From the NCBI RefSeq assembly GCF_900114435.1, contig NZ_FOZK01000002.1:930001-994000 (forward strand): a stretch of 64,000 nucleotides of DNA. Reading direction: 5' to 3'. Shown here in pieces: positions 13,792 to 16,104 of this stretch. The stretch comes from Halomicrobium zhouii. GTDB taxonomy: Archaea; Halobacteriota; Halobacteria; Halobacteriales; Haloarculaceae. The position numbers were made by a program, and so were the translations under genes. Numbering within the stretch: the stretch's first letter is position 1; the number at the start of each line of letters is the position of its first letter. Below the pieces are notes generated by a model. It had not been told where the DNA came from. It saw nothing but the letters and a program-made list of their open reading frames with translations, and did not search any database.

Positions 13792-15960
13792 ATGCCAGAC
13801 GAACGGACAGGGTTCGAGAGCAGGCGGCGAACGTTCCTGAAATCGGTGGGCGCGCTAGGGGTCACGGCGGCCGGCAGTTCGGTCGCCACGGCCCAGGAGT
13901 CGACGGAGTCGGCAGACTCGCTCGGCGACTACCACCAGGCGCTCCGGGACGACCTCACGGGTCGCGGGGGGAACAGGACGCTCCCGGCAGGAGAGTACGT
14001 CTACGGCACGACTGAGGAGGCGGCACTGGAGGCCTTCTCGCTCGAGGGCGACGGCGAGGAGTCGACTATTTCGGTCGACACCGACGCCGTCCCGATCACG
14101 ACCGCGGGACGGCTGAACGTCTCCGGTGGCGCAGGTCAGCCCCACGAGGTATCGTATAAAGGGCTCATCGAAGACGCCTCATTCAGCGAGGGTGATCTCC
14201 TCCTGGGCGTCGCGTACGTCCGGAGCGATTCCGAACACGCGCAGGCGAAGGCGTCGTTCAAGTACGAGTACACCGACTCGGATGGGGAGACGACCTATAG
14301 CGACAGTTTCGTCCAGCGGGGTGCAGAGATGGACCCGACGGGCGAGTGGCTGCGCTACTTCTTCCCCATCGAGGTGGGCGCGAAACCCGACGGGTCGGAC
14401 CACGTCCCGTTCCTGGAGTTCTGGACGGGCTACGGCGATCAGACGATCGAGTTCGGCGGGCTGGCGCTGATCGACTACAGCGACGACGACGTCGACCTGG
14501 GGACGCTGCCGCCCTACGACTACGAGGGCCGGTCGCCAGACGCCGAGTGGCGGGAGGAGGCCCACGAGCGGATCGAGGAACACCGCAAGACCGACCTCGA
14601 GGTCGAGGTCCTCGGGCCCGGCGGCCAGCCGATGAATCGCGCTGGCGTCGAGGTCGAGATGCAGGAACACGAGTTCGACTTCGGCAGCGCCGTCTCCGTC
14701 AACCACGTCACGGGCGACGAGGAGGACGACGAGACGTACCGTGAAACCTTCCTCGAGTACTTCAACAAGGCCGTCGTCGAGAACGGCCTGAAGTACCCGG
14801 CCTGGGAGGGGGGCTGGGACATGTCCCAGGACGACATCAGGTCGACGCTCGACTGGCTGAACGAGCGGGACGTTCCGACTCGCGGCCACTACCTCCTGTG
14901 GGAGGAGTACACTACCGACGGCGGCGGTGGCATGTACATCGAGAACGCGGACGAACTCTCGACCGACGAGATCGAAGACCTCGTCGCCGAGAAGATCCGA
15001 AACCACGCCGAGACGTTCGACGGCGAGGTCTCCGACTGGGACATGCACAACCACCCCATCTGGCAGAGCAACTTCCGCGACACGGAAGGGCTCGGCTGGG
15101 AGGCAGTCGACCGCTGGTGGCAGGTGGCGAACGAGGCCACGGACGACGAACTGTACACCAACGAGATGGGCGCCATCGGCGGTGCGTGGCAGCGGAGCCA
15201 GTACCTCGATTACATCGAGCACCTGGTCGAGAACGACTACCCCGTCGACGGGATCGGATTCATGGGCCACCACCAGCAGCAGTGGGGCCAGATGCTCCCC
15301 ATCACGGGCGACCGGAGCATGGAGGAGGGCTTCGACGCGTTCGCCGACTTCGACCTGCCGCTGCTCATCACCGAGTTCGACATCGAGATTTTCAGTCGCC
15401 GCAACGCCCAGGACGTCGCGGTCCAGGCCGACTACACGCGTGACTTCCTCACGATGGCGTTCAGCAAGGAGGCCGTCGAGGGCGTCATGTCCTGGGGCTT
15501 CTGGGAGGAAGACCACTGGCGACCGACCGGCGCCTACTTCGATTCGGACTGGACGCTGCGTGAGAACGGCGAAGTCTACAGGGACCTGGTCTTCGACGAG
15601 TGGTGGACCCACGAGCGCGGCTGGACCGACCACGACGGCGTCTTCGAGACGCGCGGGTTCAAAGGCGACTACGCCGTCAGGGCCCGGAAGGGCGGACTGA
15701 CTGGCGAGAAGATCGTGACGGTCGACGACGAGACGGAGACGGTGACGGTCGAACTCTCCCCCGACGACGAAGAGTCGGACGACGAAGAATCGGACGACGA
15801 CGTGGAGTGCGGACCAGGTCGGGACGACGAACCGGGGAAGGGCCCTGGCTGGAAGGGGAAGAAAGGAAACGGGCACGGAAAGGGGAAGCGAGGTAACGGT
15901 CACGGGAAGGGGAAACACGGGAAAAAGCACGGCTGGAAGGAGAACGACGAGCGCACCTGA
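13792..15960 (+). CDS. secreted GH10-family (xylanase-like) protein, acid/base Glu missing, early stop
   Basis: A 722-residue Tat-exported protein: RRRTFLKSVG at 11-20, probable cleavage after ATA near residue 35. Residues 60-235 form a carbohydrate-binding-like beta domain. Residues 250-605 form a divergent GH10 barrel with GHYLLW (366-370) and the nucleophile segment LITEFD (E528). The usual acid/base motif WDxxNE reads WDMHNH here, with H421 in place of Glu. The tail (about 655-722) is acidic, then Gly/Lys/His-rich. The TGA at 15958 is followed in frame by 47 more coding-like codons, so this end may be a nonsense mutation. The role in xylan or other glucan breakdown is inferred from the fold; hydrolysis is doubtful without the acid/base residue. 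Confidence 0.85.
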   Translation: MPDERTGFESRRRTFLKSVGALGVTAAGSSVATAQESTESADSLGDYHQALRDDLTGRGGNRTLPAGEYVYGTTEEAALEAFSLEGDGEESTISVDTDAVPITTAGRLNVSGGAGQPHEVSYKGLIEDASFSEGDLLLGVAYVRSDSEHAQAKASFKYEYTDSDGETTYSDSFVQRGAEMDPTGEWLRYFFPIEVGAKPDGSDHVPFLEFWTGYGDQTIEFGGLALIDYSDDDVDLGTLPPYDYEGRSPDAEWREEAHERIEEHRKTDLEVEVLGPGGQPMNRAGVEVEMQEHEFDFGSAVSVNHVTGDEEDDETYRETFLEYFNKAVVENGLKYPAWEGGWDMSQDDIRSTLDWLNERDVPTRGHYLLWEEYTTDGGGGMYIENADELSTDEIEDLVAEKIRNHAETFDGEVSDWDMHNHPIWQSNFRDTEGLGWEAVDRWWQVANEATDDELYTNEMGAIGGAWQRSQYLDYIEHLVENDYPVDGIGFMGHHQQQWGQMLPITGDRSMEEGFDAFADFDLPLLITEFDIEIFSRRNAQDVAVQADYTRDFLTMAFSKEAVEGVMSWGFWEEDHWRPTGAYFDSDWTLRENGEVYRDLVFDEWWTHERGWTDHDGVFETRGFKGDYAVRARKGGLTGEKIVTVDDETETVTVELSPDDEESDDEESDDDVECGPGRDDEPGKGPGWKGKKGNGHGKGKRGNGHGKGKHGKKHGWKENDERT

Positions 15961-16104
15961 CACGGGAAGAACGCCAGCGAGTGGAACGAAACCGCCCACG
16001 ACTGGCCGGAGAAGAACGCGAGCCAGTGGGGCGAATCTGACGAGCACGGGTGGAACAAGACGGTGCGGGAGTGGTTCGACGAGACGGGGGACAACGGCGA
16101 CTGA
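15961..16104 (+). other. in-frame continuation of the GH10 gene beyond TGA
   Basis: Directly after the TGA the same frame runs for 47 sense codons to a second TGA at 16102. The encoded stretch is Trp-, Asn- and Glu-rich with spaced EWNE, DWPE, SQWGE, HGWNK and REWFDE units, continuous in style with the tail before the stop. This suggests that the ancestral protein ended here, as about 770 residues. Confidence 0.65.

Follow-up and report, generated by a model that had tools for sequence, protein, structure and literature searches.

A TGG-to-TGA substitution has probably removed the C-terminal tail of a secreted GH10 glycoside hydrolase in Halomicrobium zhouii

C-terminal trimming by a nonsense mutation, outside the catalytic part of a protein, is a known general class of change, recognizable by a single substitution, a sense codon at the same position in a relative and an intact sequence downstream. 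Programmed readthrough and selenoproteins present a similar picture, i.e., an in-frame TGA followed by coding-like sequence; in the excerpted text of one review, the archaeal readthrough cases given as demonstrated are only those of selenocysteine and pyrrolysine (PMC8211752). We studied a gene of Halomicrobium zhouii for a secreted glycoside hydrolase of family GH10, located in a window of 64,000 nucleotides (contig NZ_FOZK01000002.1, positions 930,001 to 994,000, forward strand), whose reading frame is interrupted by TGA close to its 3' end. The locus shares the three features of the trimming mutations and differs from the readthrough and selenoprotein systems in its unconserved stop, the absence of a recoding tRNA from the genes found and the lack of clear selection on the extension. 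The homologue that decides most of what follows belongs to Halomicrobium sp. HArc-gm2, described as a glucomannan-enriched strain whose closest listed relative is H. zhouii, at 99% (PMC9726719).

The features of the gene are collected in Table 1. A preliminary description of this DNA had reported the TGA, the 47 open codons after it and the second TGA, as well as a series of Trp-containing motifs in the extension, and all of these were present in the sequence. The catalytic domain matched the Pfam profile PF00331 (Glyco_hydro_10) at residues 291-580 with 98.4 bits (E 6.2e-28; Pfam cut-off, 22.1 bits), and near the N-terminus lies RRRTFLK, which we take to be the Tat motif. The 47 codons following the stop translate as HGKNASEWNETAHDWPEKNASQWGESDEHGWNKTVREWFDETGDNGD, a sequence that matched no Pfam family.

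Table 1 Features of the H. zhouii GH10 gene (window positions)
Feature	Position	Strand	Details or basis
Gene for the secreted GH10-family glycoside hydrolase, up to its present stop	13792..15960	+	ATG at 13792, 722 codons plus TGA
RRRTFLK, presumed twin-arginine export motif region	13822..13842	+	Read from the translation
GH10 catalytic domain	14662..15531	+	Pfam match
Low-complexity tail kept in the protein: an acidic repeat followed by Gly/Lys/His-rich repeats	15751..15957	+	Alignment; tandem repeats; low pLDDT in a low-confidence model of the HArc-gm2 protein
TGA in place of the HArc-gm2 TGG (Trp)	15958..15960	+	Codon alignment
Putative former tail 3' of the stop: 47 codons, 5 Trp, 4 N-X-S/T sequons	15961..16101	+	Translation and alignment
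Second TGA; the natural stop of the HArc-gm2 homologue aligns here	16102..16104	+	Codon alignment

The HArc-gm2 protein (JAOPKE010000002.1 in genome G006; locus L009, identical to L066) was 92% identical to the window protein, with the same architecture, the same low-complexity tail and an aligned natural stop. Its codon aligned with the TGA is TGG, one substitution away, which keeps the tail inside the open reading frame, and the protein runs on past this position as ...TWHGKNASEWNETAHDWPEKNASQWGESDEHDWNETMREWFNETGDRGD. The post-stop alignment covered 47 codons, with 42 residues identical and 5 different, and both frames ended at the aligned TGA. The retained tail upstream differed between the two genes by in-frame indels of 5, 9 and 2 codons, those of 5 and 9 falling inside tandem-repeat sequence (periods 15 and 27). 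HArc-gm2 lacks one repeat unit of 9 codons and one of 5, and has 2 extra residues directly ahead of the Trp; near its N-terminus it is 3 residues shorter. The 9-codon unit belongs to a 27-base tandem repeat coding for Gly, Lys and His (15853-15914), of which the window has one unit more.

The C-terminal tail, which lies outside the catalytic domain, was probably lost through a single TGG-to-TGA substitution in the lineage of H. zhouii. A G-to-A change would have converted the Trp codon near the end of the gene into TGA; the ribosome would terminate there, and the protein would lose this Trp and the 47-residue tail. It would keep its signal region, its catalytic domain, its C-terminal beta module and the greater part of the Gly/Lys/His-rich linker. 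Production of the final 47 residues has thus probably ceased. The event is an ordinary nonsense mutation, not a new mode of reading genes, and a sequencing error is less likely. A recent change of TGG to TGA was among the options offered in the preliminary description, and that option agrees with the closest homologue, whose aligned codon is TGG and whose alignment runs on for 47 residues. The comparison directly shows which codon each genome has, how the tail aligns and how rare such events are in this genome; the direction of the change we infer. A TGA-to-TGG change in HArc-gm2 instead is formally possible, there being a single informative homologue and no outgroup that carries the tail. A change on the H. 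zhouii side is suggested by the tail residues themselves, since at three of the five differences (G/D, K/E and D/N) HArc-gm2 fits the tail motifs HDW and WNET.

A search with the last 98 residues of the HArc-gm2 protein found the tail in only two of the 146 family genomes, those of H. zhouii and HArc-gm2, which makes it look young and dispensable. The preliminary description had considered that homologues might stop at the first TGA, with nothing similar to the extension. The more distant homologues terminate earlier or have unrelated tails, the other clade members that terminate early doing so shortly past the C-terminal beta module, but the sole close homologue continues. Other stops flagged in GH10 matches of four genomes (G126, G128, G129 and G131) were found at gene ends; a TAG was also flagged in a further genome, G093, in its second GH10 match.

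Sequencing error was a further option of the preliminary description: a wrong base call or a misassembly could have put TGA where the strain truly has TGG, an explanation we hold to be improbable. In its favour, the two species differ by one base at this codon, and most of the tail downstream is preserved. For the codon comparison, 260 of the 364 genes from 400 kb of HArc-gm2 were matched at a minimum of 70% identity in 400 kb of H. zhouii, giving 78,245 aligned residues. Among 1149 aligned TGG codons of HArc-gm2, 1136 were TGG in H. zhouii and one was TGA, the codon at 15958; the only other premature stops in H. zhouii lay 2 and 8 codons before the aligned gene ends. With just these two over 260 genes and 78,245 residues the sequence is not error-rich, and an error-prone assembly as a general property is ruled out. 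The reverse comparison (263 of 338 H. zhouii genes, 78,754 residues) gave one premature stop, TAG for GAG, so that the comparison in both directions shows nonsense changes to be rare yet occurring in both genomes. This last case concerns a 307-residue H. zhouii gene (G000:C2:777614-778537), whose homologue in G006:C11 carries the TAG with 162 residues aligned beyond it.

The substitutions past the stop also bear on the error, weakly: amino-acid changes exceed silent ones there, which points to a tail that escaped selection some time ago. Between H. zhouii and HArc-gm2, dN/dS was 0.154 in the body of the gene, 0.188 in the tail before the stop and 0.877 in the 47 codons after it, the last ratio being based on about eight changes (6.5 nonsynonymous and 1.5 synonymous) and due in part to a low dS. 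With counts rounded to 7:1 and 55:88, the post-stop codons differed from the body (Fisher p 0.008); the difference from the retained tail, also with rounded counts, was not significant (p 0.17). None of the 677 stretches of 47 codons before the stop had as few synonymous changes as the extension. Nucleotide identity was 136/144 after the stop, 1807/1950 in the body and 122/134 in the intergenic DNA beyond; since post-stop identity is not below that of the body or the intergenic DNA, decay is not advanced. The dN/dS contrast hints, weakly, at relaxed amino-acid constraint past the stop.

An open frame after a stop is not in itself unusual in this genome. In 400 kb of H. zhouii, 174 of the 338 genes called had at least 47 open codons past their stop, some of the extensions being hundreds of codons long and presumably entering other genes, and 22 of the 338 had an extension whose total coding score was at least that of the GH10 extension. 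Because open stretches of this length are common after stops here, openness alone proves nothing, and the case for a formerly coding tail rests on the HArc-gm2 homologue and on the composition of the tail. The case shows that, in GC-rich haloarchaeal DNA, an open frame after a stop should not be taken for recoding until a homologue has been compared.

Partial readthrough of the TGA, with insertion of Trp or another residue, would yield a short form together with a long glycosylated form. The frame is open and the tail composition has been kept, as this explanation would have it; the stop, however, is not conserved, as the closest homologue has TGG and no further homologue of the tail was found in the 146 family genomes, and the extension is without clear purifying selection. 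The RNA 3' of the stop showed no unusual structure (z -1.48 over 90 nt and 0.25 over 144 nt), although some readthrough sites function without RNA structure. TGA is the commonest stop in the region, used by 204 of the 338 called genes, and a global recoding of TGA to Trp is ruled out by the base rate of one in 1149 codons over the 260 matched genes. A tRNA with the anticodon UCA was not seen among 53 ARAGORN calls, one of which (L173) had an unclear anticodon, and three intron-bearing tRNAs examined in Rfam alignments, a list that is incomplete in that tRNA-Trp itself is absent from it. Programmed readthrough, which the preliminary description had listed as an option, is disfavoured by the unconserved stop, the rarity of TGA for Trp, the ordinary RNA structure and the lack of clear selection, and we give it a very small probability.

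Insertion of selenocysteine at the TGA, which is its codon, is smaller again, to the point of being negligible. The aligned residue in the homologue is Trp, not Cys, and none of the five Rfam matches to tRNA-Sec was above the cut-off, so this candidate was ruled out; the five weak matches overlie ARAGORN genes for tRNA-Arg (two), tRNA-Ser, tRNA-Thr and tRNA-Leu. Within the window, an intron-bearing tRNA gene missed by ARAGORN lies on the minus strand at 690-794 (Rfam, 48.6 bits), with an anticodon that apparently starts with UU. Fourteen tRNA genes were located at G000:C2:253014-258675, on the contig that holds the window at 930001-994000; a published table likewise gives, for Halomicrobium zhouii CGMCC 1.10457 (4.2 Mb), 14 tRNA genes at 253014-258675 of FOZK01000002.1 (PMC6333295). 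The coordinates coincide exactly, which points to this strain as the source of the window.

A second replacement of Trp by TGA was observed in a homologue from another genome of the same genus, G004 (62-65% identity; L010, G004:C1:2554870-2556870, minus strand), in this instance within the catalytic domain, where RGHYLLWEE becomes RGHYLL*EE. The frame past this TGA is open and conserved, and the column holds Trp in 39 of 43 loci, Tyr in three and TGA in one (the loci include a few genes twice). Two TGG-to-TGA changes within one subfamily of one genus are mildly surprising because the genome base rate is low. The G004 gene, with conserved sequence beyond its TGA, speaks for readthrough; against it, the two TGA sites have no common flanking sequence by eye. 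That Halomicrobium reads some TGA codons of this GH10 subfamily inefficiently as Trp, with a minor long form in H. zhouii and some full-length enzyme in G004, is to us very improbable. Paralogy may instead explain the two nonsense changes: the closer clade is represented by three genes in H. zhouii (51-100% identity), besides further GH10 matches, and with several paralogues present an individual copy may be at liberty to degenerate.

The catalytic domain, which the substitution would leave in place, was compared with GH10 xylanases of solved structure (7d88, 7d89, 1exp and others). The window protein matches them in catalytic-domain sequence and keeps the nucleophile Glu (ITEFD); its clade differs from them in the acid/base Glu (NE), in whose place there is His (WDMHNHP, 15037-15057), and in NDYN, which aligns with NEMG (15160-15171). 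Relative to 7d88, 7d89 has Glu-to-Ala replacements at precisely the acid/base and nucleophile columns, and thus supports the assignment of these columns. Over 67 distinct segments, the acid/base column and the NDYN/NEMG column read His/Glu in 28, Glu/Asp in 28, Tyr/Asp in 6, Phe/Asp in one and Glu/Leu in one, and three further segments look misaligned. His was paired with Glu in 28 of 28 segments and Glu with Asp in 28 of 29, a pattern that may represent a single ancestral event. A relocated acid/base catalyst, or a changed chemistry, is a possible lead for the GH10 clade of the window. By title and the start of the abstract, no paper on a GH10 enzyme with a replaced acid catalyst was found in a literature search.

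The composition of the tail sets it apart from the rest of the protein. In HArc-gm2, the 47-residue tail has five Asn, each of them within an N-X-S/T sequon, versus 1 of 23 Asn elsewhere (p 6e-5); for the window frame the proportions are 4 of 5 versus 2 of 19 (p 0.006). The sequon cluster lies at 15961-16101 of the window and at 3625-3765 of L009. Trp is also enriched in the tail (5/47, p about 0.02 to 0.03). Residues 657-755 of HArc-gm2 had a pLDDT below 50 in a low-confidence structure model, built from 6 sequences with a mean pLDDT of 54.4 and too poor for active-site geometry, and in this model the tail is probably unstructured. Composition and model together point to a flexible, presumably glycosylated extension at the C-terminus, separate from the catalytic domain, and the likely outcome of the substitution would be a protein without it. 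A literature search found no paper joining N-glycosylation, haloarchaea, glycoside hydrolase, C-terminal and xylanase.

In isolation, the shortening of a dispensable tail by a point mutation is of little import. H. zhouii without the tail and HArc-gm2 with it form a natural pair for the role of a sequon-rich tail in a secreted haloarchaeal polysaccharide hydrolase.
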